Below are positions 15,651 to 54,757 of a stretch of DNA of 62,919 nt, in pieces. The stretch comes from Eubacteriales bacterium (GTDB lineage Bacteria > Bacillota > Clostridia > Lachnospirales > Lachnospiraceae), in contig JAUNOP010000011.1 in the NCBI GenBank assembly GCA_030537135.1, positions 1-62,919 on the forward strand, in the 5' to 3' direction. Below the pieces are notes generated by a model. The model made no database searches, was not told the DNA's origin, and saw only the letters and a program-made list of their open reading frames with translations. How positions within the stretch are numbered: position 1 is the first letter of the stretch; the number at the start of each line of letters is the position of its first letter. Made by a program: the position numbers and the translations under genes.

Positions 15651-15793
15651 GTTACTGTTCACTGCGTTCACAGCAACACGCTTCGCGATGCACAGAAATG
15701 CCGCATTCTGCCGCATTTCGCGCCGATTATCTCGGGGTTTTCGTGCCAGAGGCACGAAAACACCTCGCGGAATAGTCCCCCGTGAGCAGTAAC
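15651..15793 (+). repeat. Family 1 interspersed repeat, copy 1A (143 bp)
   Basis: The element begins GTTACTGTTCAC and ends GTGAGCAGTAAC, a 12 bp terminal inverted repeat with one mismatch. Inside are a perfect 10 bp hairpin TTTTCGTGCC-AGA-GGCACGAAAA (15738-15760) and a CGCATTCTGCCGCATTTCGCG-like block. Full or near-full copies recur at 49832-49950 and, inverted, at 54615-54757. It has no coding capacity beyond a chance small reading frame shared by the copies. Confidence 0.85.
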
Positions 15794-15841
15794 CCTCTAT
15801 GTTACCATTCACAGCAGTGCATCCCACAATTTATATTTGTA

Positions 15842-15870
15842 TTGTCAAAAAAAGAATTTTCCTGTAATAT
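15842..15870 (+). promoter_or_regulatory. mscL promoter
   Basis: TTGTCA (15842-15847) and TAATAT (15865-15870) are spaced by 17 bases, about 34 bases before the mscL ATG. An overlapping TATAAT-like hexamer at 15890-15895 is an alternative -10. Confidence 0.5.
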
Positions 15871-15903
15871 ATAGAGGAATATAATAGAAAAGGAGATTTA
15901 CCT

Positions 15904-16323
15904 ATGGGATTCTTTCAGGAGTTCAAACAATTCATCAGCAAGGGCAATGTAATGGACATGGCTGTCGGTATTATCATCGGCGGCGCCTTCACCTCCATTG
16001 TGACATCCCTGTGCGAGGACATCATCTCCCCTATACTGGGCATCTTCGGAGGACTGGATTTCAGTGAATATGTCCTGGATATCGGAGGAGCAACCTTAAA
16101 ATACGGAAATTTCATCACCACAATCATCAATTTCCTGATTATGGCTCTGGTTGTATTCTGTATTGTCAAAAGCGTAAACGGCGCAGCTACCCAGGCTGCC
16201 AAACTGGCGCATCTGGAGAAGGAGGAGGCAGCTCCAACCACTAAGGTCTGCCCCTTCTGCAAATCAGAAATCGCGCTTGACGCCACCAGATGTCCGCATT
16301 GCACCTCCAAGCTCGACGAATAA
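15904..16323 (+). CDS. mscL: Large-conductance mechanosensitive channel with a C-terminal zinc ribbon
   Basis: MscL opens under membrane tension to release solutes after osmotic downshock. The 139-residue protein has the amphipathic N-terminus (FFQEFKQFISKGNVMDMAVG), TM1 (about 15-40) and TM2 (about 70-92). The usual cytoplasmic helix bundle is followed by a short zinc ribbon with Cys116, Cys119, Cys130 and Cys133 (CPFC and CPHC). This tail is absent from E. coli MscL and may assist assembly or sense metal or redox state. AGGAG precedes the ATG. Confidence 0.95.
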   Translation: MGFFQEFKQFISKGNVMDMAVGIIIGGAFTSIVTSLCEDIISPILGIFGGLDFSEYVLDIGGATLKYGNFITTIINFLIMALVVFCIVKSVNGAATQAAKLAHLEKEEAAPTTKVCPFCKSEIALDATRCPHCTSKLDE

Positions 16324-16352
16324 CATATCGTTCTCGTATAATGTTTTTTTGC

Positions 16353-16389
16353 AAAAATGGTTCGGCCTAGATAAGACCGAACCATTTTT
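16353..16389. terminator. Bidirectional terminator between mscL and the converging gene
   Basis: AAAAATGGTTCGG and CCGAACCATTTTT form a perfect 13 bp stem around an 11-base loop, with a U-tract on both strands. Confidence 0.9.
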
Positions 16390-16442
16390 CTCTCCTGCTT
16401 TCCGCAAAATGCAAAGCTGTTCGCAGGCACAAAAGCAGCATA

Positions 16443-16943
16443 TCAATGTACCACATTTCCCAAAATCACATAGGAAACCACATACATAATAATCGTAGCC
16501 ATCATGATTCCGCACAAAATGGCAAACGAGGATTTTTTAATGTCAATATCCAAAAGAGAGGCAATCAGCGCCCCTGTCCAGGCTCCAGTTCCAGGGAGAG
16601 GAATTCCCACAAAACACATAAGCCCCCAAAATTCATATTTCTTAATCTGGTCGCTCTTGCCCATTGCTCTGTCCTCAAGCTTTACAATCAGACCATTAAA
16701 AAGCTTTGTCTTTTTCATCAGCCGAAAAATCTGACGAATAAACAGCAGAATAAAGGGGATTGGAATAATATTTCCTGCAATGCAGAGCGGAATTGCCCTT
16801 GCAGCCTCGATTTTCAAAAGGGAGGCTGCAAGAAGCCCTCCTCTGAGTTCCAAAATCGGTATCATAGAAATAATGAAAATAACCGCCTCTGCTGAAATAT
16901 AGGGGGATAAATTGGCGGTAAACCATTGTACCAGTGATTCCAT
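16443..16943 (-). CDS. Small multidrug-export-like membrane protein (COG2426)
   Basis: This 166-residue polytopic protein has about four hydrophobic segments and the family motif GIPLPGTGAWTGAL near residues 115-128, plus IPILELRGGL near 28. The family (Pfam Sm_multidrug_ex) is distantly related to DedA/SNARE-associated proteins; its transport role is weakly supported. AGGAG lies seven bases before the ATG. It follows hisC by 35 bases and probably shares its transcript. Confidence 0.85.
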   Translation of the reverse strand: MESLVQWFTANLSPYISAEAVIFIISMIPILELRGGLLAASLLKIEAARAIPLCIAGNIIPIPFILLFIRQIFRLMKKTKLFNGLIVKLEDRAMGKSDQIKKYEFWGLMCFVGIPLPGTGAWTGALIASLLDIDIKKSSFAILCGIMMATIIMYVVSYVILGNVVH

Positions 16944-16978
16944 AAATTTCTCCTATCTTTTTTATAATAATACCCACA

Positions 16979-18046
16979 TCAGTGGATGCGGACATCGAGA
17001 TATTTCTGTAAAAAGCCGATAAAGGCCTCCATTTCCTCTTGTGTTCCTATGGTTATGCGAAGGTAATTCTTGATTCTCTCTGCTGAAAAATACCGGACAT
17101 AAATATGCTCTTTCCGAAGCGCCATAAACAATTCCTCTGCCAAAACACTCTCATGCGAGGCAAAAATAAAATTGGATTTGGAATCCCGGAAGGAAAAGCC
17201 CAGCTTCTTAAGCTCCCTCTTTGTCCATTCTCTGGTCTCCACAATTTTACGTACGGTGTCCTCAAAATATTCCTTATCCTGAATAGCAGCCACTCCCGTG
17301 AGTATGGCGGTTCGATTCATGGTATAAGAATTAAAGGAATATTTCACATCATTCAGGTATCGAATCAAGGCCGGATTGCCCATGGCATACCCAATCCGCA
17401 TTCCTGCCATGGAGCGGGATTTGGAAAAGGTCTGCACAACCAGAAGATTATCATACTTTTCAATCAGAGGAAGCGCTGTCTGTGCGCCAAAATCCACATA
17501 AGCCTCATCCACAATCACAACAACATCCTGATTATGTCGGATAATATCTTCGATTTCCTCAAGCTCCATATCAACACCTGTGGGCGCATTGGGATTCGGG
17601 AAAATCACTCCCCCGTTTTCTTTGTAATAGTCCTCTTTTCTGATAGAAAAATTCTCTGTCAGAGCAGGTCTCTCGTAAGGAATGCGCAGGAGCTGTGCCC
17701 ATACGTCGTAGAAGGAATAAGTAATATCAGGAAACAGAATCGGCCTTTCACTGTTAAAAAAGGTCATAAAACACATGGCCAGCACATCGTCTGAGCCTAC
17801 TCCAACAAAAACCTGCTCCTTTTGCAGATGGTAGAAATCAGCCACAGCTCCCACCAGGTCTGCTGCTGTTGGGTCTGGATACAGGCGCATTTTGTCAGCA
17901 TTCATGTTCCTGAGTATATTCTGAACTCCTGGTGCAGGAGGGTATGGATTCTCATTTGTGTTTAATTTAATCATATCCGGCTGATTTGGCTGTTCCCCAG
18001 GGGTGTAGGGTACCACCCTGCGGACGTTTTTTTCCCAGAGTTTCAT
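16979..18046 (-). CDS. hisC: Histidinol-phosphate aminotransferase
   Basis: HisC transaminates imidazole-acetol phosphate with glutamate in histidine synthesis. The 355-residue PLP enzyme shows LNTNENPYPP (28-37), NPNAPTG (151-157), the DEAY motif near 180 and the Schiff-base lysine Lys209 in TFSKSRSMAG. The start at 18046 follows AGGAG with nine bases; the reading frame extends to 18124 without support and across the promoter. It is not in a his operon here, so a role with other aromatic keto acids cannot be excluded. Confidence 0.93.
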   Translation of the reverse strand: MKLWEKNVRRVVPYTPGEQPNQPDMIKLNTNENPYPPAPGVQNILRNMNADKMRLYPDPTAADLVGAVADFYHLQKEQVFVGVGSDDVLAMCFMTFFNSERPILFPDITYSFYDVWAQLLRIPYERPALTENFSIRKEDYYKENGGVIFPNPNAPTGVDMELEEIEDIIRHNQDVVVIVDEAYVDFGAQTALPLIEKYDNLLVVQTFSKSRSMAGMRIGYAMGNPALIRYLNDVKYSFNSYTMNRTAILTGVAAIQDKEYFEDTVRKIVETREWTKRELKKLGFSFRDSKSNFIFASHESVLAEELFMALRKEHIYVRYFSAERIKNYLRITIGTQEEMEAFIGFLQKYLDVRIH

Positions 18047-18095
18047 CCTGTAAGGCTCCTCTCTTTCTTTTCCTTTTGTATGTTTTCGCTTATCT

Positions 18096-18124
18096 ATTGT
18101 AAGCGCTGACAGCTTCTTTGTCAA
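18096..18124 (-). promoter_or_regulatory. hisC promoter
   Basis: TTGACA (18119-18124) and TACAAT (18096-18101) on the - strand, spacer 17. The leader to the ATG is about 45 bases and holds no T-box. The stretch 18125-18254 shows nothing recognisable. Confidence 0.75.
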
Positions 18125-18254
18125 AGGAATTCCGAATATTACTATATTTTTTCCACAGCTCGCCGTCCGTTACCTGGGAGATATCTGCTCATGCCCTAAA
18201 GGACTAGCTTCGCGTCGCCAGCATGGCAGCCACTTTCCGGGCTTATCGCGTAAA

Positions 18255-18284
18255 AAAAGAAGGCAGTACTTTTCTGCCTTCTTT
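18255..18284 (-). terminator. Terminator of the phosphoribosyltransferase-like gene
   Basis: AAAGAAGGCAG and CTGCCTTCTTT pair over 11 bases, followed on the - strand by a run of T. Confidence 0.88.
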
Positions 18285-18289
18285 GCGGA

Positions 18290-18928
18290 TTAGATTTTAG
18301 AATATCCATAACCATTGACCATTGCGTCAATCTTCTGCTTGTTCCGGCACAGTGGGCAATCATGGCCTCTGTATGTTCCGTAGCTTGGAATATCCTTCTG
18401 CTGAAAAATAGAGCACACAGGAAGCTGGGCCACACTGCTTACAGCGCTGAAGATAGCTGCGATTCCGCTGATTTTTCCTCCATAATACAGAATACTTGCC
18501 ACTGCCTTGGCAAGGGTCTCGCCTGTTGTGACAGAGCCATTAAGAATCAGGATGTTTTTTCCCTTAATCATCATCTGTATATTGTCCCTGAAAATCATCT
18601 GCCCCACATTATATTCCGGGGAAGTAACGTAAATTGTCTGATGCGCATTCATCGAGAGGATTCCTGCCTTTGTCAGCTCGTCTGCCAGATAAGCGCCCAC
18701 AACCTCCAGACCATCCATACAGAGAATCGTATCTACCGGCGTTGTTGTTTCATAGTTTTTTGCAAGAACTCTGGCAATTCTCTTTGCCTCCGAACAGCGA
18801 GATTTCATCGTGGTAATATCCATGTAATGGGTAATGTGCGACTGAGGCGTCACAAAATGACCCGGGAAAATCTTGAGCTGAATCTGTTCGTCTTCTCGTG
18901 CATAAATTTTGAACATCTTTGATTCCAT
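18290..18928 (-). CDS. Phosphoribosyltransferase-like protein (orotate PRTase-like fold)
   Basis: The 212-residue protein has a type I PRTase layout: a flexible N-terminal part, a segment TILCMDGLEVVGAYLADEL, and NILILNGSVTTGETLAKAV in the place of the PRPP loop, where the usual acidic Asp-Asp pair is replaced by Asn-Gly. That change suggests altered or lost PRPP chemistry. A C-terminal CPLC pair (in GHDCPLCRN) could bind metal. The start at 18928 follows AAAGGAGG; the frame extends to 18973. The gene is monocistronic with its own terminator. Its function is unknown. Confidence 0.75.
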   Translation of the reverse strand: MESKMFKIYAREDEQIQLKIFPGHFVTPQSHITHYMDITTMKSRCSEAKRIARVLAKNYETTTPVDTILCMDGLEVVGAYLADELTKAGILSMNAHQTIYVTSPEYNVGQMIFRDNIQMMIKGKNILILNGSVTTGETLAKAVASILYYGGKISGIAAIFSAVSSVAQLPVCSIFQQKDIPSYGTYRGHDCPLCRNKQKIDAMVNGYGYSKI

Positions 18929-19080
18929 AAGGCAATCTCCTCCTTTTGTGCGTATTTCAAACCAATTTCGCATCCTTGAGAAATTTTATTGGTGATATTA
19001 ACCATTTATACGCAAAATATTTCCTATATTATAGCACTAAAGACAACATTTTGGCAACACATTCTGCTTTCTTTTGTATT

Positions 19081-19155
19081 TTTAACATATCAAGCAAGTC
19101 TCCCGCTTCCATTTCGCACAGAAATAAGCGGTGAGTGGAGGACTTGCTCGTCTCA
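19081..19155 (-). repeat. Family 2 repeat, copy 2e (3' half)
   Basis: On the - strand this 75 bp stretch matches the 3' part of the long element at 43957-44176: GACTTGCTCG... through CACCGCTTATTTCTGTGCGAAA... to GACTTGCTTGATATGTTAAA, at roughly 80% identity by eye. Its inner end reads TGAGACGAGC, and the TGA is the yqeB stop codon. Confidence 0.75.
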
Positions 19156-19962
19156 CCATTTCCTCTGCGCAGCGCAGATAAGTTCCAGAACACTTCCTGC
19201 AATGCAGCGGGCCTTGTCTGAAATGGTAAAGCAATTTGCCATCTCTCCCCTTCTTGGGTCAATGTCTGCGATTTTAAAGCCCTCTGTCACAGGATAGCCA
19301 TCTCTCAAAAGCCCTCGTATAATTCCTGAGAGCGACGCTTTCACAGGTACGCTTTCTCTTCCTGTCTCCACGCTGGCAATCACCTCTCCCTTTTGAACAT
19401 AGTCTCCTATTTTCCTCACATTGCAAAAAACTCCCTGTGCCTGTGCATGAAGCACTCTCTCTGCTCCATAACCTCCAATCAATCCAGGAATTCCAGTATT
19501 GGCAAGAGCCTCCCCCTGCCGGATAATCCTGCCCAGATTGTGACCGCGCATGGTCTCTATCACAGCATCTACCTCCTTCCCTGCCGTAAAGCCCGGACCA
19601 AGAGCAATTGTCAGAGGAGCCATGCTCCGGGAGGTTCCCAGGTTTTTCTTTGCAAGAATAGCGTCCACTACCACACCTGGCCTGCACCTCTGGACGCACT
19701 CTGCGCGCTCATCTGCCAAAACCGGAACTTTTCCAGAGGACAGTATTTTCTCTGCTTCCTCCCAGCTTTGAATAAGTACCCCTGTCATCCCCTCCACACA
19801 GGTCTCTCCCTCATAAACAGCTTCGCACAGAGACACCTGCCTGCGGATGGCAGCCGGATGCTCTGTCTCTAATACAAGAACAGGAAAGCCTGCCGACCAT
19901 AAACGATGAATCGTTCCTGTGGCAAGGTCTCCGCCTCCCCTTACAACAATAAGCTCTTCCAT
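19153..19962 (-). CDS. yqeB: Selenium-dependent molybdenum hydroxylase accessory protein YqeB (EF2563 family)
   Basis: The 269-residue cytoplasmic protein begins with the Rossmann-like VVRGGGDLATG and contains GPGFTAGKEVDAVIETMRGHNLGR, typical of the EF2563/YqeB family. A biotinyl/lipoyl-like segment (VQKGEVIASVETG...VKASLSGIIRGLLRDG) lies near 190-225. The family co-occurs with SelD in genomes that make a labile selenium cofactor for xanthine-dehydrogenase-type enzymes. A good AGAGG site precedes the ATG. Its stop codon is contributed by repeat copy 2e. Confidence 0.9.
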   Translation of the reverse strand: MEELIVVRGGGDLATGTIHRLWSAGFPVLVLETEHPAAIRRQVSLCEAVYEGETCVEGMTGVLIQSWEEAEKILSSGKVPVLADERAECVQRCRPGVVVDAILAKKNLGTSRSMAPLTIALGPGFTAGKEVDAVIETMRGHNLGRIIRQGEALANTGIPGLIGGYGAERVLHAQAQGVFCNVRKIGDYVQKGEVIASVETGRESVPVKASLSGIIRGLLRDGYPVTEGFKIADIDPRRGEMANCFTISDKARCIAGSVLELICAAQRKW

Positions 19963-20017
19963 CTTGGTTTCCTCTCTTCTCTTATTTGTATTTCTTCCAA
20001 CCAGACATAACTTCTTA

Positions 20018-20254
20018 TTATAAAAGAATCTCTATTGCCTGCTGGAATTCCTGCTCCTTGTCTGGATATTTTTTCAGAAAATCCAAATATTCCAGAGGCT
20101 CCATGCGCCATGCCAGACCACAGCCTGCCGAAATCTCTACCGGCACAGGAATCAGCCTTCCTCCCACATGATTTTGGGTACAGAACTTCTCCATAGCCAT
20201 GGCCTGTGAGGTTGTACGAAAGGTGAGAACCCTGTACTTTCTCTTCTGTCTCAT
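20018..20254 (-). CDS. DUF3343 putative selenium/sulfur carrier protein
   Basis: This 78-residue protein (YRVLTFRTTSQAMAMEKFC ... GRLIPVPVEISAGCGLAWRM) fits DUF3343, also called a Se/S carrier-like family. Cys near residue 25 and the GCGL cysteine near 45 are candidate carriers. AGAGG precedes the ATG by nine bases. It lies between the cysteine desulfurase and yqeB, as expected for a chaperone passing selenium to the cofactor machinery. Confidence 0.85.
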   Translation of the reverse strand: MRQKRKYRVLTFRTTSQAMAMEKFCTQNHVGGRLIPVPVEISAGCGLAWRMEPLEYLDFLKKYPDKEQEFQQAIEILL

Positions 20255-20279
20255 AAACCCAATCCTCTTTCTGTATAAT

Positions 20280-20345
20280 CAAGCAGAAATTCGCAATACC
20301 CATAGGACACGATGTCCGCTTCGCTACTTGCTTGATACGGTAAAG
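20280..20345 (+). repeat. Family 2 repeat, copy 2b (short form)
   Basis: This copy reads AAGCAGAAATTCGCAATACC, then CATAGGACACGATGTCCGCT, then TCGCTACTTGCTTGATACGG. GGACA...TGTCC pairs as a small hairpin. It lies between the cysteine desulfurase and DUF3343 genes. Confidence 0.8.
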
Positions 20346-20367
20346 CTCAAAAATCTCTTGCAGCTAC

Positions 20368-21510
20368 TTAGCAGACTGACTCTGCTAATGTGCGGATTGC
20401 CTCTATGGCGCAGTCAATTTCCCACTCTGTATTATAATGAGAAAAACTAAAGCGCACGGCTCCCTGCCTCTCTGTTCCAAGCGCCCTGTGCATGAGCGGT
20501 GCGCAGTGAGCGCCCGCCCTGACACAGATTTCATAGTCCTCCCAGAGCCAGTCGCTCACACTGCCAGAGTCTTCCTCTCCAATATTCAAAGATACGATTG
20601 CCGCCCGCACCTGTGCGTCAAAATCTCCATACACACATACATTTTCGATTTTCCGGATTCCCTTCACAAAGCGCGCCGCAAGCTGCTGCTCCTTCTGATA
20701 AATTTGGTCGATTCCTGTTTTTTCAAGGTAAGAGAGCGCAGCGCACAAACCTGCAATCCCATGAGCATTCAGTGTCCCTGCCTCCAGCGCTGTCGGCATC
20801 TCAGACGGGTGTTCCCTTGCATAGCTGTGAACTCCGCTTCCTCCTACCTTAAGAGGACGCACAGAGAGTCCCTCCCGCACATACATTCCTCCTGTTCCCT
20901 GAGGGCCGAGAAGCCCCTTATGCCCGGTAAAGCAAAGCACATCAATTCCTGTTTTCTGTACGTCTATAGGCAAAATTCCTGCTGTCTGAGACGCGTCCAC
21001 AATGAGAAGAAGACCATGCTCCCTGGTAAAAGAAGCTACCCTCTCAAGGTCTGTCACATTCCCTGTAAGATTCGAGGCGTGGGTAATCACAACTGCTCTT
21101 GTATTTTCCCTGCGCTTCTCCTCCAGCTCCTCATAGCAGAGACGCCCCTTCCTATCCGCATGAATAAAGCTTACCTCCACACCCTGTTTTTCCAGAAGAT
21201 ACAAAGGCCTGAGTACAGAATTATGCTCGCATTCTGTGGTAAGTACATGGTCGCCGCAGGAGAAAAGTCCCATAAGCACTGTATTCAAAGCCTCTGTTGC
21301 ATTGGAGGCAAAGGCGATTCTTGTAGGAGCCTCTGCATGAAAAAGCCCTGCCAGTTTCTCTCTGGTCTCATACACTGTCCGGGCAGCCAAAAGTGTAGGG
21401 TCATGCGCCCCTCTTCCTGCGTTTCCGAGTGTGGAAACAGCCCTGCACACTGCCTCCTGTACCTCCCGGGGCTTTTGAAGGGAGGTCGCTGCATTATCAA
21501 AATACATCAT
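20368..21510 (-). CDS. SelD-associated cysteine desulfurase (aminotransferase class V)
   Basis: This PLP enzyme would release S or Se from (seleno)cysteine as an enzyme-bound persulfide or perselenide. Of 380 residues, the key ones are His97 in ECEHNS, Asp172 in LIVDASQTAG, Lys198 (Schiff base, FTGHKG) and the catalytic Cys336 in RAGAHCAPL. The N-terminus YFDNAATSLQKP is typical of the am_tr_V_EF2568 subgroup found beside yqeB, DUF3343 and yedF. It overlaps the yedF stop by four bases, indicating coupling. Confidence 0.9.
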   Translation of the reverse strand: MMYFDNAATSLQKPREVQEAVCRAVSTLGNAGRGAHDPTLLAARTVYETREKLAGLFHAEAPTRIAFASNATEALNTVLMGLFSCGDHVLTTECEHNSVLRPLYLLEKQGVEVSFIHADRKGRLCYEELEEKRRENTRAVVITHASNLTGNVTDLERVASFTREHGLLLIVDASQTAGILPIDVQKTGIDVLCFTGHKGLLGPQGTGGMYVREGLSVRPLKVGGSGVHSYAREHPSEMPTALEAGTLNAHGIAGLCAALSYLEKTGIDQIYQKEQQLAARFVKGIRKIENVCVYGDFDAQVRAAIVSLNIGEEDSGSVSDWLWEDYEICVRAGAHCAPLMHRALGTERQGAVRFSFSHYNTEWEIDCAIEAIRTLAESVC

Positions 21511-22133
21511 GGCTTTACAATCACACCTGCGCCTGTCATCTTCTCTGCAATCACATACATATTTGTGACAGCCCCCACCTGAAGCTTCTCAGTAAGTCCA
21601 TAATGATTCAGGCAGGTTCCGCAGGTGAGAATTTCCACACCCTCTGCCTCCATACTCTTCAAATCCTCCAGGGCAGCAGATCCCTCGCAGGTAAAGGCTG
21701 CCCCTCCATTATAGAAGAGAATCGTTCGCGGAAGCTCCTCCTGCTGCGCCAGCGCATACAGAAAGCTCTTCATAAGCGCCCTTCCAAGCTCCTCGCTTCC
21801 CTCTCCCATCTGTGAGGATGAAATCGCCACAACGATGTTCCTTCGCCTGTCCGGGCAGCACTCCTGCACCTCTTGTGCCGCCTCTTTCTCTGCCTCTTCC
21901 TTTTTCGCTTCCTCTCCCTCCACGGTCAGAAGCACTTGATATCTGCGTTCCTCAAGCTTTTGTGACTTCACTCCATAGCCCTTCTGAACAGCCATCTTAG
22001 TAAGATTCTGGACAGCGATTTCATTGTCCACAAGAACCTCTACCTGTCCTCCCCCCTGAAGACTCTTAACTGCATTTTTTGCCTTTACAACCGGTATGGG
22101 GCAGGCGTCCCCTATTGCATTTACTTTTATCAT
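21507..22133 (-). CDS. yedF: Selenium metabolism protein YedF (TusA-DsrE fusion)
   Basis: The 208-residue protein joins a TusA-like sulfur-carrier domain (1-75, CPIPVVKAKNAV with Cys11) to a DsrE-like domain (98-208, IVVAISSSQMGEG ... LTCGTCLNHY). The CGTC cysteines are candidate selenium or sulfur carriers. The family is known as a selenium metabolism protein co-occurring with SelD. The gene is 70 bases after selD and overlaps the downstream desulfurase gene. Confidence 0.92.
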   Translation of the reverse strand: MIKVNAIGDACPIPVVKAKNAVKSLQGGGQVEVLVDNEIAVQNLTKMAVQKGYGVKSQKLEERRYQVLLTVEGEEAKKEEAEKEAAQEVQECCPDRRRNIVVAISSSQMGEGSEELGRALMKSFLYALAQQEELPRTILFYNGGAAFTCEGSAALEDLKSMEAEGVEILTCGTCLNHYGLTEKLQVGAVTNMYVIAEKMTGAGVIVKP

Positions 22134-22203
22134 CTGTTTTTATCTCCTATCTGCAGCATACCCTTTGGAAGCCTGAAAGACCCCATCTGCTCTGCTTTTC
22201 TTC

Positions 22204-23259
22204 TCATGAGCAAGGGCTGTCTGCGCCTTGCCCTGCACTCACTAAAATCTCTGTCTCTGCCTTCTCAAGAAGTTCTCCAACGATTCCTGCCGGAAGTCCC
22301 GCAGCCTGAAGCTCTTTTAAAAGCGCTTCTGCCTGACTCTCCTCTGCTGCAATCAGAAGTCCTCCCGACGTCTGAGGGTCAAACAATACCTCTTCCATGG
22401 CAAAGGATATTCCTTCAAATTTTACATATTTTCCAAAATGATTTCTGTTTCTCTGCGCTGCTGCTGTCAGAAGAAACTCGTCCGCATAGGCGAGGGCTTC
22501 CTCAAAAACCGGCACCTCATCTGCATAAATTTTGCAGGACAGCCTTCCATCCAGCATCTCATGAAGGTGTCCCAGAAAGCTAAAGCCTGTCACGTCTGTG
22601 CAGGCATGAATATCATACTCTCTGCATATCTGGGAGGCATATTTATTGAGCTGCATCATAGATTCCTTGGCAGCGCTAAGAGCCTCCCTGGATGCCTCTC
22701 CCACACGGTTTGCTGTGCAGATAATTCCCACCCCCAGCTTTTTGGTAAGAATCAGTCTGTCCCCGGCTTTTCCCTGATTATTAGGATATATATGCTCTGG
22801 ATGAACAACTCCTGTCACAGAAAGTCCGTATTTCACACCACTGTCTGCAATGGAATGCCCCCCTGCGAGGATTCCTCCTGCCTCTGTCACCTTCTCGCTG
22901 CCTCCGCGCAGAATTTCTCCCAGGATATTTAGATCCATTTCCTCAGGAAAGCATACAATATTGAGCGCTGTTTTCACATCCCCACCCATTGCATATACAT
23001 CGCTTAAAGCATTTGCAGCTGCGATTTTTCCAAAAATATAGGGGTCGTCCACCATAGGAGGAAAGAAATCCAAAGTCTGCACAATGGCCGTATCCTCTGT
23101 GATTTTATAGACCGCTGCATCATCCCTGCTGTCATACCCAATCAGCAGGTTCTCATCCTCTATTCCTCTTGGGAGCTTTTCAAGCACCCTGCCAAGAATG
23201 CCTGCTCCCAGCTTTGCAGTGCAGCCGCCTCCCTTGCAAAAAACAATTTTTTCTTCCAT
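22204..23259 (-). CDS. selD: Selenide, water dikinase (selenophosphate synthetase)
   Basis: SelD makes selenophosphate from selenide and ATP. In the 351-residue protein the catalytic Cys13 and Lys16 (GGGCTAK) align with E. coli Cys17 and Lys20, while the position of E. coli Cys19 is alanine. The [44 protein letters not shown] and [15 protein letters not shown] motifs are intact. There is no in-frame UGA. GGAG stands seven bases before the ATG at 23259; an earlier TTG at 23277 overlaps the PHP stop. Its neighbours point to the molybdenum-hydroxylase selenium cofactor rather than, or besides, selenocysteine. Confidence 0.95.
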
Positions 23260-23273
23260 TTTCCATCTCCGCG

Positions 23274-24122: not shown

Positions 24123-24174
24123 AGTTCAGATTTTCCTTTCTGTATATTGATTTGTCAAACATAAACCAGCGTTC

Positions 24175-27519: not shown

Positions 27520-27554
27520 ACTTTTGCCTGTACCCTCTCTGCTTTTGTGTCTTT

Positions 27555-32580: not shown

Positions 32581-32645
32581 TTTAACGTATCAAGCAAGTA
32601 GCGAAGCAGACATCGTGTCCTGTGGGTATTGCGAATTTCCGCTTG
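32581..32645 (-). repeat. Family 2 repeat, copy 2c (short form)
   Basis: On the - strand it reads AAGCGGAAATTCGCAATACC, then CACAGGACACGATGTCTGCT, then TCGCTACTTGCTTGATACGT and TAAA. It lies between the dehydratase stop codon and eda within the operon, so it is probably transcribed and may affect mRNA processing between the two. Confidence 0.85.
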
Positions 32646-41794: not shown

Positions 41795-41937
41795 GAATTT
41801 TACTTTATAGGGTTGGGGCAAAAGCATTCCACTGTTATTTTCCTTTGTCTCGTTATAGTTTCAAGCGCCTCTCTACACTCTATATTTTATCACACAAGCA
41901 GCGCAATAGAAAAAGGAAATTCACTCCAAAATACATA

Positions 41938-41994
41938 AGAAGCCCCTTGCCTCCTCACAGAATGGAAGCAAGGGACCTTCTCTGATACGTTAAA
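41938..41994 (+). repeat. Family 2 repeat, copy 2f (divergent 3' end) and terminator hairpin
   Basis: The stretch GAAGCAAGGGAC...TGATACGTTAAAT matches the end of the long element at 44176. CCCTTGC and GCAAGGG, with GAAG/CTTC, form a hairpin that may stop the OYE transcript. The TAA stop of the OYE-family gene lies within TGATACGTTAAA (read on the - strand). Confidence 0.65.
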
Positions 41995-43936: not shown

Positions 43937-43956
43937 TTTTCTCTCCTTTTCTTTTG

Positions 43957-44176
43957 TCAAACGGATATTCGCAATCCGCTTCGCTGCTTGCTCATAACCG
44001 TATACCTTGTCGCACAGCGTCCGCTCCAAAGGAGCATGTATTACGGGATGCCCATGGTATAGCTGCTGTCGCAGCTTCTCAGAAGGGGTCCTCACCCCTT
44101 CTGAGACAAGCAAGTCTCTCACCCACCGCTTATTTCTCTGCGAAATTGAAGCAGGGGACTTCCTTGATACGTTAAA
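43957..44176 (+). repeat. Family 2 repeat, copy 2d (long form, 220 bp)
   Basis: It begins TCAAACGGATATTCGCAATC, shared with the short copies, and ends TTGATACGTTAAA. The interior, absent from the short copies, includes a perfect 12 bp hairpin TCTCAGAAGGGG-TCCTCA-CCCCTTCTGAGA and CACCGCTTATTTCTCTGCGA. The left end abuts the OYE gene ribosome site. No transposase-like gene is present. Confidence 0.8.
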
Positions 44177-44246
44177 TCTGCATTCCTGCTCTGTTTTGCG
44201 ATTATTCACCGTTCTAATGCCAGAGCATCCTGGAATTGTTTTTGCC

Positions 44247-45659: not shown

Positions 45660-45805
45660 TATGTTTTTCCTTTCTTTTTTTAGGCTCAATCCTTTGTTTA
45701 TTTGTTACTCTAAAAATCGCATGCGTTTTTGTTATATATAAAATACCAGGAAACCCCAAAATCATATATCCTTCTCTTGAACTTTTTATAAGAATTTTGT
45801 CGTTT

Positions 45806-47026: not shown

Positions 47027-47220
47027 TCTTTTTCTCCTTCTTCCTTTTTTGTATTTGTGAGTTAATCATAACAAGAGCCTGGAAAATCCTATATCTTTAT
47101 TTTGTCTTTTTTGTATCTATTTTGCTTTATCCTCTTCCAGCAAGACAGGTGGGGGAAGATGTCACTTTCTGTCATGCGCTTAAACGCTGCCTATGCATCC
47201 TTATGCAAAAATACTCCCTG
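47027..47220. other. Gap between the two glycosidase genes
   Basis: No terminator, promoter or small gene that I can support. Confidence 0.4.
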
Positions 47221-49527
47221 TTAGCCGACCACTTCTATCCCCTGCGGAGCCTTATAATCCACCCTGCATTTTCCATCCTCTATTTTCCAGGATACCCAGA
47301 CGTCTCCCACAGGAGTTTTGACTCTTCCGGCAGCGCTTGTAAGATATCCGCTCACCGGTGCAATCTGTATTTTCCTGTATCCGGGCTCTGCGGGTCTTAC
47401 TCCCAGCACAGTTCCTGGAAGCTCATACAGCGCCAGCGCTCCCCACGCATGACACTCGCTTCTCGCATATGCCTCTGATTCCACACAGGTCGTGCAATGA
47501 TTTGCAATCATCTTCCTCCACGCTTCCCAATATTGATTGGTATATTGATAAAGTCCTGTCTTTTCCAGGGCGCGGAAAAGATAAAAACGCATAGCTACCG
47601 TACATTGCGTATATTCCTTGTGGCGGATGGTTTTCAGAAGGTTCTGCCTTCCTGTCTCTATGTCTGCGGTATCTGTCAGGATAGCAAATACCTGACAATG
47701 CTGACTATATTCCTCTATTCCAGGGCCGTCCTGAAGCATTCCATTTCTTCCTGTACAACAGGCTCTCACAGCAGCCTGAACCCGTTTTGCCCTCTCAAGA
47801 AGCATGTCTGAATCCTCCTTCCGATTCAGGAAGAGCGCCAGCCTGCTCGCATACTGTAGGCCATAGATGTACAAAAGGCTCTCCATGGTAAGCGCTCCTG
47901 TGCGTCCTGCTGTCGGCATTCCGCTGGTGTCCTGCCAGTGATCCGCCCAGTCAATAAAGGACCAGAACGGCGCCTCCATGTTGACGCCTCCAATCTTTCC
48001 CACATAATGCTCTGGTGTGAGATGCGCTTCAAAAAAGTTCAGAATCTGTTCAATCGCAGGCATATGCTCCTGTACCAGCTTCTTATCCCCGAAATACATC
48101 ATATGGTCATAAACCATCAAAATATAATAGATAGAAAATCCGGGTATAATGTTCGGATTACAGTTCGGATAAGAGCAATTCAGTAGTCCGTCATATCTCT
48201 GCGACCGTCTCAGATCATCCATGCATTTGCGGGCAAGCCTGTCGTCTGCACTGACAGAATACGTATACAAAATCTGTGTCCTTGCATCCATGATATATTG
48301 AAGCTGCTCATAAAACGGACAGTCCTCATAGCTTTCATGCATACACCGTCTGAGAGTTCTCTCACTGATTTCCCAGATTTTCTTCAAACTCTCGTCTGAC
48401 GTCTCAACCATTGTCTCCACCTGAAGCGGATAGCCTGTTTCCTCATAGTTCATGGCACAGAGTGTGAGCGGCTCTTCTCCTGTTATGATGTGCAGCCGCA
48501 CAAACCGAAACGTCCGAAACCAATAGGGTTCATATACCTCTGGCAGAGCATTATCTCCCAGCCCGTGAACACGGTAGATATCCTCATAGCCCTGCAAATG
48601 TCCATGTATTTTGTCTGTTCTGTCTGTCTTAACAGGGATTTTTTCCGGTCCTATGACCCCCTCCTGTACATAGGCCTCTGAGTAAAGGAAATGCACCATA
48701 GAACCGTGTCCTCCCAGAAAAGAGGTTCTTGGATAGCCTGTCATCTCCTCTCCTGCATCTATCTCTATGATTTCCTCGCTTTTTGCCGGAATTGTGATGC
48801 TGCTTCTTCCCTGCAAAAAATCATTCCATTCTCTGTCTGTGTGTACAGACTCTTTGATGTCCATCACTCCTTCAAAGAGCCTCTTTTTTCTGTACATAAA
48901 TGGAATGGTGCGAGGACACAGATTTCCGGGGCTGACTGCTCCGTGAATCTGCATTTTCATATAGGGTCTTGCACTCTCCCACCTCCGGTCGTCGTAGCTC
49001 TCTCTCTTCCAGCCAAAGGTTTCTGCATTTCCCTGTGCCTTCTCATGAATCATAAGCGGAGCAAAGCGCTCTTCCTCCCGGACAAAGGTAATACCTTCCT
49101 CTTTTTTGCATTTCCACGACGCATCAGCAGAGAGGTCATACTTCTTCCCCTGCGCATCCTGGATGCTGCCGCTCACATATAGCCCTGGCACAGAGGTTCG
49201 GAACATTCCATGATTTCCTTTGTCTGGTTCTTCTGGATAGCGAAGCACCTTGACAGCAATTGTATTTACTCCCTCTTTTAGCCACGGCAGCACAGAAATG
49301 CTATCATAAAACCAGATTTGCTTATCTCCCCTGCTCGGCCCTATTTCCACAAACTTATCATTAATATATAGCTTATATTTCGTATCTGCCGATATCTGAA
49401 TCGTTCCCTGTATCGGCTCTGCCTCTAATTTAATAGTCTTGCGAAACAATACAATCCTTGGACCTTCTTTGTCCTCTGCATTCCAGGAGGGACTCCATAC
49501 CCAATTTGAGTCTTTAAGATATTCCAT
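47221..49527 (-). CDS. Alpha-L-rhamnosidase-like enzyme (GH78)
   Basis: The 768-residue protein has N-terminal beta domains (residues 25-200, KYKLYINDKFVEIGPSRGD) and an (alpha/alpha)6 barrel (about 380-690). The catalytic-region motif HESYEDCPFYEQLQYIMDAR (398-416) supplies acidic residues including Asp402, Glu407 and Asp414, and SECHAWGALALYEL is a typical C-terminal motif. It lacks a signal peptide, so it acts inside the cell. It would release rhamnose from plant glycosides. It is the first gene of the locus, with AAAAGGAG before the ATG. Confidence 0.85.
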   Translation of the reverse strand: MEYLKDSNWVWSPSWNAEDKEGPRIVLFRKTIKLEAEPIQGTIQISADTKYKLYINDKFVEIGPSRGDKQIWFYDSISVLPWLKEGVNTIAVKVLRYPEEPDKGNHGMFRTSVPGLYVSGSIQDAQGKKYDLSADASWKCKKEEGITFVREEERFAPLMIHEKAQGNAETFGWKRESYDDRRWESARPYMKMQIHGAVSPGNLCPRTIPFMYRKKRLFEGVMDIKESVHTDREWNDFLQGRSSITIPAKSEEIIEIDAGEEMTGYPRTSFLGGHGSMVHFLYSEAYVQEGVIGPEKIPVKTDRTDKIHGHLQGYEDIYRVHGLGDNALPEVYEPYWFRTFRFVRLHIITGEEPLTLCAMNYEETGYPLQVETMVETSDESLKKIWEISERTLRRCMHESYEDCPFYEQLQYIMDARTQILYTYSVSADDRLARKCMDDLRRSQRYDGLLNCSYPNCNPNIIPGFSIYYILMVYDHMMYFGDKKLVQEHMPAIEQILNFFEAHLTPEHYVGKIGGVNMEAPFWSFIDWADHWQDTSGMPTAGRTGALTMESLLYIYGLQYASRLALFLNRKEDSDMLLERAKRVQAAVRACCTGRNGMLQDGPGIEEYSQHCQVFAILTDTADIETGRQNLLKTIRHKEYTQCTVAMRFYLFRALEKTGLYQYTNQYWEAWRKMIANHCTTCVESEAYARSECHAWGALALYELPGTVLGVRPAEPGYRKIQIAPVSGYLTSAAGRVKTPVGDVWVSWKIEDGKCRVDYKAPQGIEVVG

Positions 49528-50131
49528 AATATTCTCCTTTTATCATATCTTTAAGTAAACTTTTATTCTGTATTTTCGTAAAAAGTTTTTCGCGTCTAAT
49601 TCATCACTGAAGTAACGAAAATGCGATGCGCAATATTTCAAGCTTTTGACTTATCAAGTTTATTTTATCGTTTTTTCCTGATGTAATATATCCGTATTTT
49701 GTTGTTTTTGATGTTATTTTGTCCCACCTATTTTGACATTCGATTTCTCTATGCAAGCACAGCGCCTCTGTCCTTACACTCAGAAACGTTTTGTCAAGTG
49801 TGTTTGTAAACTTTTCCAATATCCAAAATACGTTACTGTTCACGATGCACAGAAATGCCGCATTCTGCTGCATTTCGCGCCGATTATCTCGGGATTGCCG
49901 TTCCAGAGGCACGAAAACGCCTCACAAAATAGTCGCCCGTGAGCAGTAACTGAGCTGCAACATTTTCTTTCTCAACTTTTCACAAAACACTGTTTTTATG
50001 GCAAAAGAAATGGTATACTATATTTACTGGACTGTTCCTGTCCAGGTTCGTTTGTATAACGAATTCTGAAAGCCTGCACAAAAGGGGCTTTCTCAAAGGT
50101 ACATCACATTCTATTAAAGGAGAGACTTACA
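49528..50131. other. 604 bp divergent intergenic region
   Basis: It holds Family 1 copy 1B and a possible -10 for the flavodiiron gene (TATACT at 50014-50019, no clear -35). On the left is AT-rich sequence (49528-49830) with no gene. A rhamnosidase promoter is not clear to me. Confidence 0.45.
49832..49950 (+). repeat. Family 1 interspersed repeat, copy 1B (119 bp)
   Basis: Same ends as copy 1A (GTTACTGTTCAC and GTGAGCAGTAAC) and the same core, but it lacks a 24 bp block after the left end (TGCGTTCACAGCAACACGCTTCGC-like in 1A). Substitutions in the hairpin arm (TTGCCGTTCC instead of TTTTCGTGCC) weaken the stem. Confidence 0.85.
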
Positions 50132-51919
50132 ATGAAGATTACCAATGACATTAAATACGTAGGTGTCAACGACCATGCTGTAGACCTCTTTGAGGGTCAG
50201 TATGTAGTTAAAAATGGTATGGCCTACAATTCCTATGTAATCATGGATGAGAAAATCGCCGTCATGGATACTGTGGACGCTCATTTCACCCATGAATGGC
50301 TGGATAAGATTCAGGAAACAATAGGCTCCCGTCAGCCAGATTATCTGATTATCCAGCACATGGAACCAGACCATTCTGCAAACATTGCAAATTTCATGAA
50401 GGTATACCAGAATACCACTATTGTTTCCTCTGTAAAGGCCTTTGCCATGATGAAGCAGTTCTTTGGAACCGACTTTGCAGAGAGACAGATCGTAGTAAAA
50501 GAAGGAGATACTCTCTGCCTGGGCAAGCACACCCTGGCATTTGTAGCTGCGCCGATGGTACACTGGCCAGAGGTCATTGTTACTTATGATACCTGCGATA
50601 AGGTTCTGTTCTCTGCTGACGGCTTCGGCAAATTCGGGGCTCTGGATGCCCAGGAAGAGTGGGCAGATGAGGCTCGCCGCTATTTTATCGGTATTGTAGG
50701 CAAATACGGCACTCAGGTTCAGAATCTTCTGAAAAAGGCAGCCGGACTGGATATCCAGATTATCTGCCCGCTTCATGGCCCCATTCTCACAGAGAATCTG
50801 GGCTATTATCTGAATCTCTATAACACCTGGTCTTCCTACACTCCTGAGGAGGAAGGAATTGTTATTGCCTATACCTCTGTTTACGGCCACACAAGGAAGG
50901 CTGTGGAAGCCCTCTCTGCAAAGCTCTCTGCAAAGGGCTGCCCAAAGGTAGTTGTTTATGACCTGGCACGCTGCGACATGGCACAGGCTGTGTCAGACTC
51001 CTTCCGCTACAGCAAGCTGGTTCTTGCCACTACCACCTACAATGCTGGCATTTTCCCATTTATGCGCGACTTTATCGAGCATCTGACTGAGCGCAATTTC
51101 CAGAACCGCACGGTCGCCCTGATTGAGAACGGCACCTGGGCGCCTCTTGCTGCCAAGGTTATGAAGCAGATGTTTGAGGGCTGCAAAAAGCTCACCTTCA
51201 CAAACACCACTGTACACATCAAGTCCGCGCTGAGCGAAGAAAGCAGCGCACAGGTAGAGGCACTGGCAGAAGAACTCTGCTCTGCTTATGTGGCACAGAG
51301 CGACAAGGCAAACAAGAATGACCTGACTGCCCTGTTCAAGATTGGCTATGGTCTCTATGTTGTCACCTCCAATGACGGCAAAAAGGACAATGGACTGATT
51401 GTGAACACTGTTACTCAGCTCACAGACAACCCCAACCGCGTGGCTGTCGCCATCAATAAGGCAAATTATTCCCACCATGTCATCAAGCAGACTGGCATTA
51501 TGAATGTAAACTGCCTGTCCACTGAAGCTCCGTTCGAGATATTCAAGAACTTCGGCTTCCAGAGCGGAAGAAATGTAGACAAGTTTGCAGATTGCTCTCC
51601 TCTGCGTTCTGACAATGGACTGGTATTCCTTCCAAGATATATCAATGCCTTCATGTCCCTGAAGGTAGACCAGTATCTGGACTTTGATTCTCATGGATTA
51701 TTTATCTGCAGCATCACAGAAGCGCGTGTGATTTCTTCTGTAGATACCATGACCTACACCTACTATCAGAAGAATGTAAAGCCAAAGCCTGAGACACAGG
51801 GCAAGAAGGGCTTTGTATGCAAGGTGTGCGGCTATATCTATGAGGGAGACGAGCTTCCAGAGGATTACATCTGTCCGCTGTGCAAGCACGGCGCTGCTGA
51901 TTTTGAGCCGATTTCATAG
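50132..51919 (+). CDS. Flavodiiron protein with flavin-reductase and rubredoxin domains
   Basis: This 595-residue enzyme reduces O2 (or NO) to water in anaerobes. Domains in order are: a metallo-beta-lactamase diiron centre (His76, Glu78, Asp80, His81, His144, Asp163, His215), a flavodoxin (about 252-395, YTSVYGHTRKAVEAL), an FMN-binding flavin-reductase-like domain (405-545) and rubredoxin (Cys563, Cys566, Cys581, Cys584). Fusing the redox partners suggests NAD(P)H can feed it directly. AAAGGAG precedes the ATG. Confidence 0.95.
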   Translation: MKITNDIKYVGVNDHAVDLFEGQYVVKNGMAYNSYVIMDEKIAVMDTVDAHFTHEWLDKIQETIGSRQPDYLIIQHMEPDHSANIANFMKVYQNTTIVSSVKAFAMMKQFFGTDFAERQIVVKEGDTLCLGKHTLAFVAAPMVHWPEVIVTYDTCDKVLFSADGFGKFGALDAQEEWADEARRYFIGIVGKYGTQVQNLLKKAAGLDIQIICPLHGPILTENLGYYLNLYNTWSSYTPEEEGIVIAYTSVYGHTRKAVEALSAKLSAKGCPKVVVYDLARCDMAQAVSDSFRYSKLVLATTTYNAGIFPFMRDFIEHLTERNFQNRTVALIENGTWAPLAAKVMKQMFEGCKKLTFTNTTVHIKSALSEESSAQVEALAEELCSAYVAQSDKANKNDLTALFKIGYGLYVVTSNDGKKDNGLIVNTVTQLTDNPNRVAVAINKANYSHHVIKQTGIMNVNCLSTEAPFEIFKNFGFQSGRNVDKFADCSPLRSDNGLVFLPRYINAFMSLKVDQYLDFDSHGLFICSITEARVISSVDTMTYTYYQKNVKPKPETQGKKGFVCKVCGYIYEGDELPEDYICPLCKHGAADFEPIS

Positions 51920-52026
51920 ACAGACACGATTTGTCTAATGACAAACGCAAGGGCCAAATGGACATACAAGCATGTCCGCTTGGCTCGTTGCTCGCGAGAA
52001 TAAAAATCAGGAAATGCTCTGACGCA

Positions 52027-52083
52027 AAAAACAGCCTGAGAGCGCCTTCTGTCTGCTGGCAGAAGAAGCCTCTCAGGCTGTTT
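52027..52083. terminator. Bidirectional terminator between the flavodiiron gene and feoB
   Basis: AAACAGCCTGAGAG and CTCTCAGGCTGTTT pair around an inner CTTCTG/CAGAAG stem, with T-runs on both sides. A GGACATACAAGCATGTCC hairpin and GCTTGGCTCGTTGCTCG, at 51960-51995, resemble a worn Family 2 copy. Confidence 0.9.
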
Positions 52084-52102
52084 CTTTATTCGTATCTGTT
52101 CA

Positions 52103-54469
52103 TTATCCTATGATAAGCATTCCCACAAGCCTGACCACAAGGGCGCAGACCCATGCAATCGCGCACTGTCCGACAACAACTCCCACTGCCCACTTGCCTC
52201 CAAGCTCTCTTTTTATAGAAGCAATCGCTGCTACGCAGGGCGTGTAAAGCAGACAGAATATAAGAAGTCCTGCCGCTGCTGCCGGAGAAATGACCGCCAG
52301 AAGGCTCTCTGTGTTTCCAAATAAAATAGACAGAGTAGAAACCACGCTCTCTTTTGCCATAAAGCCCGCAATCAGAGCTGTGGAAATCCGCCAGTCTCCA
52401 AAACCAAGCGGCGCAAATATCGGCGCAATAAGGCCGGCGGCCATGGCAAGAATACTGTCATGGGAATCTGCAACCATATTCAGGCGCAGATCAAAATTCT
52501 GGAGAAACCAGATAACAATTGTGGCCACAAAAATCACGGTAAACGCTCTCTGAAGAAAATCCTTTGCCTTTTCCCATAAAAGCTGCGCTACGTTTTTCAC
52601 ACCTGGCATACGGTAATTGGGAAGTTCCATCACAAAGGGAACTGCCTCTCCCTTAAACACACTGTTCTTGCACACCAGAGCAAGCACAATCCCCACCAAA
52701 ATACCTGTAAAATACAGTCCTACCATGATAAGACCTCCGTGCTTTGGGAAAAAAGCCGCTGTAAAAAATCCATAAATCGGCAGCTTTGCCGTACAGCTCA
52801 TAAATGGCGTAAGGAGAATGGTCATTTTTCTGTCTCTCTCAGAAGGAAGGGTACGGCTCGCCATAACTCCGGGTACTGTACATCCAAAGCCAATCAGCAT
52901 AGGAACAATGCTTCGTCCGGATAAGCCGATCTTTCTCAGCAGCTTATCCATCACAAAGGCAACCCTTGCCATGTACCCAGTATCTTCAAGAAGAGAGAGA
53001 AAGAAAAACAATGTCACAATAATCGGCAAAAAGCTAAGAACACTTCCCACGCCGTTAAAGATTCCATCAATAATCAGCGAGCGCAGCACCTCATTCACCT
53101 TCCATGCTGCAAGCGCAGAGGAAACCGCCTCTGTCAGAGCATCGATTCCTATCTCCAAAATTCCCTGAAGCCATGCGCCGATAACATTAAAGGTCAGCCA
53201 AAATACAAGAGCCATAATTCCTACAAAGGCTGGAATTGCGGTATATTTTCCTGTCAGGAATTTATCTGCCCTACGGCTTCTCTCCCTCTCCTTGCTTTCC
53301 TTTGGCTTTACCACAGTCTCATCCACCAGGTTCTGGATAAAGGAAAAGCGCATATCCGCAATCGCGGCCGCACGGTCAAGTCCTCTCTCCTCCTCCATCT
53401 GGCAGATAATATGCTCAATCATTTCCTCTTCATTTTGTGAAAGCTCCAATGCCCCAAGAACTCTCTCATCTCCCTCCACCAGCTTGGTTGCCGCAAAGCG
53501 CACAGGAATCTGGGCGCGCTGCGCATGGTCCTGGATGAGGTTCATAATGCCGTGAAGACATCTATGTACAGCACCGCCATGGTCATTTTCCTCACAGAAG
53601 TCCATTCTTCCAGGTCTCTCCTGATACTGCGCCACATGGAGGGCATGATTTACCAGCTCATCGATTCCCTCATTCTTTGCAGCCGAGATAGGAATAACGG
53701 GAATTCCCAGCATATTTTCCATGATATTGATATGCACAGCGCCGCCGTTTCCCCTCACCTCATCCATCATATTCAGGGCAAGAACCATGGGAACATCCAG
53801 TTCCATAAGCTGCATGGTCAGATATAGATTTCTCTCTATATTTGTGGCGTCTACAATGTTAATAATGCCTGTCGGCTTTTCCTCCAAAATGAATTTTCTG
53901 GACACGATCTCTTCACTGGTGTAGGGAGAGAGCGAATAAATTCCGGGAAGGTCTGTAATCTGCGTGTTTGCATGTCCCTTGATAGCGCCGCTCTTTCGAT
54001 CCACGGTCACTCCTGGAAAGTTTCCTACATGCTGATTGGAGCCTGTGAGCTGATTAAACAGCGTGGTTTTTCCGCAGTTCTGATTTCCTGCCAGGGCAAA
54101 GGTAAGACAGACGTCCTTTGGGAGCGGATTCTCATCTGCCTTCACATGGTAGCGCCCTCCCTCTCCAAGTCCTGGATGCTCTGTGCTGTCCTGCTTTTTT
54201 CCCTTCTTTTTGTCTGTGTACTCTGCCTGATAAGCAGAGGCTGACACTGGCTCAATTCCTATCTGCTCTGCATCTGCCAGCCGAAGCGTCAGCTCATAAC
54301 CATGTATGCGAAGCTCCATGGGGTCTCCCATGGGCGCATATTTTACCAGTGTTACCTCTGCACCGGGTATAACGCCCATGTCCAGAAAGTGCTGTCTGAG
54401 AGATCCCTCTCCCCCGACAGTGGTTACAATCCCTGAATTCCCGATTTCCAAATCCCTCAAAGTCATCAT
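52103..54469 (-). CDS. feoB: Ferrous iron transporter, FeoA-FeoB fusion
   Basis: This 788-residue protein imports Fe2+. Residues 1-74 form a FeoA SH3-like domain (MMTLRDLEIGNSGIVTTVGG ... LDMGVIPGAEV). The GTPase domain follows with G1 GNQNCGKTT (128-136) and DLPGIYSL (G3), and then the transmembrane Gate domains with CTVPGVMASRT and CTAKLPIY cysteine motifs near 520-555. Feo systems usually have separate FeoA; the fusion occurs in clostridia. No separate feoA or feoC is adjacent. Confidence 0.95.
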   Translation of the reverse strand: MMTLRDLEIGNSGIVTTVGGEGSLRQHFLDMGVIPGAEVTLVKYAPMGDPMELRIHGYELTLRLADAEQIGIEPVSASAYQAEYTDKKKGKKQDSTEHPGLGEGGRYHVKADENPLPKDVCLTFALAGNQNCGKTTLFNQLTGSNQHVGNFPGVTVDRKSGAIKGHANTQITDLPGIYSLSPYTSEEIVSRKFILEEKPTGIINIVDATNIERNLYLTMQLMELDVPMVLALNMMDEVRGNGGAVHINIMENMLGIPVIPISAAKNEGIDELVNHALHVAQYQERPGRMDFCEENDHGGAVHRCLHGIMNLIQDHAQRAQIPVRFAATKLVEGDERVLGALELSQNEEEMIEHIICQMEEERGLDRAAAIADMRFSFIQNLVDETVVKPKESKERERSRRADKFLTGKYTAIPAFVGIMALVFWLTFNVIGAWLQGILEIGIDALTEAVSSALAAWKVNEVLRSLIIDGIFNGVGSVLSFLPIIVTLFFFLSLLEDTGYMARVAFVMDKLLRKIGLSGRSIVPMLIGFGCTVPGVMASRTLPSERDRKMTILLTPFMSCTAKLPIYGFFTAAFFPKHGGLIMVGLYFTGILVGIVLALVCKNSVFKGEAVPFVMELPNYRMPGVKNVAQLLWEKAKDFLQRAFTVIFVATIVIWFLQNFDLRLNMVADSHDSILAMAAGLIAPIFAPLGFGDWRISTALIAGFMAKESVVSTLSILFGNTESLLAVISPAAAAGLLIFCLLYTPCVAAIASIKRELGGKWAVGVVVGQCAIAWVCALVVRLVGMLIIG

Positions 54470-54614
54470 AATCGTACATCTCCATTTCTGGTTTTATCTA
54501 TAAGACAACAAGAATATAAGCTGCCTGACTGCATTCTATATCCCCACGCTTATCATACAACCACAGGGCTGTAACGTCCAGTATTTTTTTCCTGAATATA
54601 TTGCCTCGCATTCC

Positions 54615-54757
54615 GTTACTGTTCACAGGCGACTATTCCACGAGGTGTTTTCGTGCCTCTGGCACGAAAATCCCGAGATAATCGGCACGAAATGCGGCAG
54701 AATACAGCATTTCTGTGCATCGCGAAGCGTGTTGCTGTGAACGCAGTGAACAGTAAC
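54615..54757 (-). repeat. Family 1 interspersed repeat, copy 1C (143 bp, inverted)
   Basis: It runs GTTACTGTTCAC... to GTGAACAGTAAC, here a perfect 12 bp terminal inverted repeat, in opposite orientation to 1A and 1B. The core hairpin TTTTCGTGCC-TCT-GGCACGAAAA is intact. At 54818-54868 a decayed fragment may be present (CGTGTTCATGCCGGCATGAA). Confidence 0.88.

Follow-up and report, generated by a model that had tools for sequence, protein, structure and literature searches.

Miniature inverted-repeat elements of a Lachnospiraceae genome, probably mobilized by an IS66-family transposase

Three copies of a short repeat bounded by 12-bp terminal inverted repeats lie in a 62,919-bp stretch of DNA from a Eubacteriales bacterium of the Lachnospiraceae (contig JAUNOP010000011.1 of assembly GCA_030537135.1, positions 1 to 62,919; hereafter the window). 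The repeats are a new family of a known kind of element, the miniature inverted-repeat transposable elements (MITEs), or non-autonomous transposons. At a probability of roughly 0.88, we regard the family as non-autonomous MITEs that are probably moved in trans by an IS66-family transposase, with 8 bp of target duplicated at each insertion. A preliminary description of the window, made from its letters alone, had suggested a MITE, and that suggestion now has strong support from 8-bp duplications across the family, from a site that is empty in related genomes, and from IS66-family elements with the same type of end.

Size and distribution of the family

The whole-genome search that the preliminary description had proposed gave further copies, both in the same genome and across the genus. 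With a 143-bp window copy as query against the genome of origin (3.07 Mb, 103 contigs), and with 40 of 106 first-look candidates scored, the search returned 41 rows that represent at least 40 places (E values of 4.7e-70 to 8.8e-6), one row being the hairpin of a copy already in the list (C9:17926-17952); matches at so many places and of such strength are repeats, not chance. The end pattern GTTACTGYTCRC matched 99 times in this genome, against 4 for a reversed control. A second subfamily, 144 bp long, has the same ends and another interior (10 near-full copies), and shorter forms of 27, 37 and 60-61 bp also carry the family ends. Intact elements are mostly 142-145 bp, and MITE forms as a whole span 27-198 bp, too small for a transposase gene. 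The 198-bp versions occur at loci L229 and L238 of genome G037 and L352 of G001 (G and L numbers are our handles for genomes and loci), and those at L229 and L238 have an extra hairpin-like stretch beside the internal hairpin called B below.

Matches were found in 29 of 145 genomes, the genome of origin included, with five candidates scored per genome; 28 belong to the same genus, some of them matching by short pieces only, and a single weak match lies outside it. Among 50,697 phage records two match at about 75%, both unannotated and from human faeces. None of 72,556 plasmid records matches, and a search of IMG/VR for an exact 20-base linker gave no match.

Evidence for transposition

Apart from the 12-bp terminal inverted repeats, a criterion for MITEs, the main signature of transposition is found just outside the ends. 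A scan of the loci of the genome of origin and of G037 for exact direct repeats flanking end pairs gave 52 at a length of 8 bp, and 22, 7, 2, 1, 1, 1, 0 and 0 at lengths of 4, 5, 6, 7, 9, 10, 11 and 12 bp. Target-site duplication, named in the preliminary description as a check, is thus present in the family at 8 bp, though not in register at the window copies. Insertion is also seen by comparison of genomes: the 145-bp element L341 of G051 is absent from G004 and G005, where its flanks overlap by exactly 8 bases, a single copy of the target. The L358 site, which is empty in G016, is a second insertion polymorphism.

Two further observations concern the comings and goings of such elements. A copy kept in G004 has apparently been lost from G051 (L353 compared with L344), where 4 bases are left; the deletion seems to have run from the duplication to the end of the element itself. 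Locus L149 has, at 2079-2123, an exact 8-bp duplication around a palindromic insert of 45 bp whose ends, GTAACTGTTCGG/GAACAGGTAC, perhaps represent another end type.

An IS66-family transposase as the proposed mover

IS66-family elements with ends of the MITE type, each with an exact 8-bp duplication, occur in related genomes: one 2242-bp copy in G037 and three 2237-bp copies in G001, all with GTTACTGTTCAA ends, a 2253-bp copy in G006 with ends GTTACTGTTCAC and GTTACAGTTCAC, and a 2399-bp copy in G014 with GTTACTTTTCAC ends. A second MITE end type, GTAACTGTTCAG, found in G028, G024, G052 and G037, likewise has IS66-family counterparts, with GTAACAGTTCAG ends in G024 and G021 and GTAACTATTCAG ends in G011. 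The G037 transposase matches PF03050 (DDE_Tnp_IS66) at an E value of 2e-19 and 70.6 bits (cut-off 23.1), and scores 143.4 bits against the NCBI IS66 model NF033517, under its cut-off of 180. IS66-family ends typically start with GTAA; those found here start with GTTAC in one subgroup and with GTAAC or GTAAGCG in others. Because these elements of related genomes combine the same end type with 8-bp duplications, an IS66-type transposase is the likely mover, and it probably moves the MITE. In the mechanism we propose, an IS66-family transposase supplied in trans would cut and join the GTTACTGTTCAC ends, 8 bp of target would be duplicated at every insertion, and the copies in the genome of origin would be apparent relics of past or visiting transposase activity. 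In G004, five 2546-bp IS66 copies (L276, L284, L289, L294 and L298) have GTAAGCG ends and exact 8-bp duplications, and are apparently recent.

The likeness to these larger elements is confined to the ends. The MITE has 11 outer bases in common with the G037 copy, and since the GTTAC-ended copies compared share no more than 11-14 terminal bases with it, the MITE interior was not derived from these copies.

Several observations weigh against this account of the family. No IS66-family transposase gene was detected in the genome of origin, whose assembly is 91% complete. With the G006 copy the MITE has 12-14 bases in common at one end and 5 at the other, and with the G014 copy only 6 outer bases. 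Co-presence of transposase and MITE in the genus is a weak association, with MITE matches in 12 of 18 genomes that have this transposase and in 16 of about 43 that do not (P 0.05, for an assumed genus size of 61 and with transposase remnants counted). None of the three window copies has an in-register 8-bp target duplication: the flanks of the two 143-bp copies give 2/8 matches in the 8-bp register, the 119-bp copy has no duplication on inspection by eye, and GGAATGC stands on both flanks of the minus-strand copy, out of register. This lack at the window copies fits older insertions. To the same side belongs an orientation bias, described below, that is stronger than the target preference of the elements predicts.

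A transposase of the IS256 family is a most improbable alternative mover. Duplications made by IS256 are 8-9 bp long, and IS256-family matches occur in 6 of 14 genomes searched, but the genome of origin has no such match. Around the 12 PF00872 matches in the 14 genomes, some of them at contig ends, there is no GTTACTG-type end pair with a duplication of at least 7 of 8 bases, and on this ground IS256 was rejected; the IS256 copy inspected, at L265 of G037, appears to end in GAGGGTGTAAAA.

The copies in the window

The preliminary description placed three copies in the window, with 12-bp ends and an internal TTTTCGTGCC hairpin, and all of this was borne out. The copy used as the search query is full length (143 bp, positions 15651..15793, plus strand; folding z -5.7), with its left terminal inverted repeat, GTTACTGTTCAC, at 15651..15662 (plus) and the right one, with one mismatch, at 15782..15793 (minus). 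The second, of 119 bp (49832..49950, plus strand), has a 5' internal deletion and matches query positions 32-143 at 90%; its terminal inverted repeats lie at 49832..49843 (plus) and, with one mismatch, at 49939..49950 (minus). The third is again full length at 143 bp, inverted (54615..54757, minus strand) and 94% identical to the first, its left terminal inverted repeat being at 54746..54757 (minus) and its right at 54615..54626 (plus). A fourth fragment had been noted at about 58388. A match is present there, but it is borderline only, a possible remnant of the 3' part at 58390..58413 (plus strand; 24 bp at 87.5%, E value 0.006).

All three copies sit between divergent open reading frames, as described earlier (the gene names in use are those of that description). 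One frame beside a window copy, 15904-16323, falls below the first score limit of our gene caller. Another dispersed repeat (AATTCGCAATACCCACAGGGTACGACGTCCGCTTCGCTGCTTGCTTGAT type), matched through L151, is found in the window at 20286-20332, 32593-32639 and 58515-58551 and near 43975-44081; repeats of this kind also lie beside MITE ends or copies in L145 and L022.

Internal hairpins and the case for a structured RNA

From left to right, the left end of the element is followed, at positions 21-27, by an inner half-copy of itself (CAGYAAC); then come hairpins B and C, the latter flanked by TCTCGGG and CACCTCGCGG, and the right end. The stems of B and C are mostly unrelated in sequence between lineages, yet complementary (for example TTTTCGTGCC/GGCACGAAAA, TTTTGGCAT/ATGCCAAAA and TTTTCATGCAT/ATGCATGAAAA). 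C stems of two kinds, GGCAT and CATGCAT, are found with each of the two types of B (L170, L225, L165 and L188, compared by eye), and from these combinations it follows that modules have been exchanged; in the mechanism proposed here, the internal hairpins would be modules exchanged between lineages.

Strong folding and repeated site choice had earlier been said to fit a structured RNA or an insulator as well. As a rival reading, this would be a structured RNA or a cis-regulatory element (insulator or attenuator) sited at promoters and retained by host selection, and the question is whether the hairpins behave as such an element would. Folding is indeed strong on both strands (z -5.3 to -6.7 on the element's plus strand and -3.4 to -5.5 on the opposite strand), and stem changes between lineages are complementary. 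Twenty-six elements with a single type of hairpin B, chosen by hand among the 85 catalogued, were aligned; in this alignment 94.9% of the cells pair, and nine pairs and 51 cells have changed on both sides. The percentage paired, the 51 cells and the covariation score were not equalled in any of 500 shuffles, whereas nine pairs were reached in 41 of them and the number of pair types in 361; slid versions of the alignment had 0-15 cells changed on both sides.

Among 18 copies of the genome of origin the picture is different. There, of 90 stem changes on one side only, 60 disrupt the pairing, compensatory cells number only two, and G-U and A-C changes stand at 27 to 38, so that no strand is favoured. 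Paired positions in these copies are half as variable as unpaired ones (0.049 against 0.098), a point in favour of host selection, though the lower variation may reflect the conserved ends. The folding is thus truly strong, with covariation between lineages, but the stems are broken freely among copies of one genome. Rfam has no match in the window at gathering scores. Neither of two copies scanned contains a terminator-like or promoter-like site; the single promoter-like site lies just outside, near chance level.

Our best guess is that the hairpins serve the element in the form of DNA, for instance by drawing its ends together or by shielding the element, and not as host RNA. A more elaborate version of this idea, which we hold only tentatively and think rather unlikely in full, is a positively selected transposon device in which conserved linkers form a fixed frame around two exchangeable palindromes, these palindromes would fold as single-stranded DNA or as a cruciform during IS66-type transposition, and insertion would sense direction, with a motif like the terminal inverted repeat on only one side leading to landing antisense to host transcripts.

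Short forms as products of decay

The forms of 27-60 bp could themselves be transposing units, but one 60-bp form and one 27-bp form sit where a close relative has a longer one, which makes that idea less likely. At one site that has the same duplication in both genomes, the 145-bp element of G004 is reduced to 60 bp in G051 by a clean deletion with TCGCG repeats at its borders. At another, where G051 has a 60-bp form, the G004 form is 27 bp long and altered in sequence, and a nested 145-bp copy comes after it. The 27-bp form is the expected product of deletion between the inner and outer CAGYAAC. The smallest forms are therefore best taken as remnants that decayed in place and not as transposons of 27 bp; one 60-bp case demonstrates such decay, and for the others it is an inference.

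Placement and orientation among genes

Genes around the elements were called with a simple caller trained on the same loci, and element-free gaps for comparison were drawn from the loci around elements, among which there are overlaps that enter the count twice. In the genome of origin 52 of 57 elements fall in classifiable gaps and five at edges; 34 of the 52 are in same-direction gaps, 18 in divergent gaps and none in convergent ones. Divergent gaps make up 31% of intergenic bases in the element-free set and convergent gaps 6%. Thus divergent gaps are not enriched (18/52 against 31%, P 0.35), and the preference for them that had been read from the window as repeated site choice is rejected: the divergent siting of all three window copies is probably a local coincidence. 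Convergent gaps are perhaps avoided (P 0.03).

Of 145 elements across five genomes, same-direction gaps hold 90, divergent gaps 44 and convergent gaps 2; another 8 are at edges and 1 is inside a called gene. Forms without the 27-bp left pattern are left out of this set, and for 29 of the 145 that pattern only was found, the right end and duplication being unconfirmed. In same-direction gaps 75 of 90 elements are antisense to the genes (27/34 in the genome of origin, 24/28 in G037, 12/12 in G051, 11/13 in G004 and 1/3 in G001). G004 and G051 are close relatives whose loci are partly the same insertions; omission of G004 leaves 64/77. In divergent gaps 30 of 44 elements are opposite to the nearest gene. 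Positions had first suggested a replichore bias, but in divergent gaps the elements stand 24 to 20 with respect to the leading strand (taken from local GC skew), no bias; a replication-strand cause was accordingly rejected, and the orientation bias follows gene direction.

Part of the bias lies in the target. Just to the right of the duplication, YTHCTWT is favoured and G avoided (4-7 of 101 at each of four positions), and to the left there is little preference; these figures come from 101 unique sites, 5 of an initial 106 having been set aside because the end of another element forms their right flank. The motif is similar to TTACTGT in the element itself, and some insertions do lie beside other copies. 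Scored on element-free gaps, which are small in G051 (816 bp) and G004 (1,142 bp), the motif predicts 1.6-2.5 antisense insertions to 1 sense. The ratio observed, about 5 to 1, exceeds this (P 0.0002 at an expected share of 0.66; 0.006 at 0.714), and because the sites that define the motif belong to the biased set that it is meant to explain, the part truly due to it may be smaller. The asymmetric target motif explains the antisense bias only in part.

A possible addition to the transposon reading, rather than an alternative to it, is that sense insertions are harmful to read-through transcripts of neighbouring genes and have been purged. We consider this less probable than not, although a bias that tracks genes and not the leading strand, and that survives the omission of G004, is what it would lead one to expect. 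The pyrimidine-rich motif by itself already predicts an antisense excess, the two copies scanned lack terminator-like sites, 27-bp forms without the two big hairpins are also biased (12/13 antisense), and in G001 the bias is reversed, if in a tiny sample.

The antisense bias, the orientation opposite to the nearest gene in divergent gaps and the almost complete confinement to intergenic DNA might also be claimed for a structured RNA or insulator. Against it stand the empty sites of close relatives, the deletion of a core in place while the ends remain (145 bp to 60 bp), and the absence of divergent enrichment. With stems that break freely and no terminator-like site in the two copies scanned, this alternative is left without support and is, in our estimate, very unlikely; that the elements control genes is not supported by good evidence.

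Relation to known elements and implications

The BOX elements of Streptococcus pneumoniae and the Correia elements of Neisseria are likewise short intergenic repeats with foldable, modular interiors, a likeness of description only. MITEs of Thiomargarita are reportedly the subject of one paper (PMC4853749). Our searches of open-licence papers, including papers on Blautia and Lachnospiraceae judged by title, found no IS66-linked MITEs. With the IS66 family, here a divergent subgroup with a transposase of about 557 amino acids, the present elements have in common the end type GTTACTGTTCA and the 8-bp duplication; they differ in being too short for a transposase, and the terminal bases in common with the IS66 copies compared number no more than 11-14. 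MITEPsy1 of Pseudomonas syringae (PMC3189936) is similar in being about 100 bp long and gene-less, with terminal inverted repeats, a target duplication and a proposed mobilization by a larger insertion sequence with near-identical ends. It is tied to ISPsy2 (given as "IS5?" in a table) and duplicates 4 nt, unlike the present family, which is tied to IS66 and duplicates 8. In PMC9769881 the MITE is paired with ISCca4, and the IS66 entry is ISCca16.

In our verdict the element is of an ordinary kind and the mover proposed for it is new; what is unusual is that whole palindromes have been exchanged while the frame stayed fixed, and that the antisense bias is explained only partly. A mover and a duplication length are now proposed for repeats that are abundant in one genus, which can accordingly be annotated and set aside in screens for RNAs and regulators. 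The antisense bias and the one-sided target motif, found despite near-identical ends, pose the puzzle of how an IS66-type transposase distinguishes the two ends of its element.

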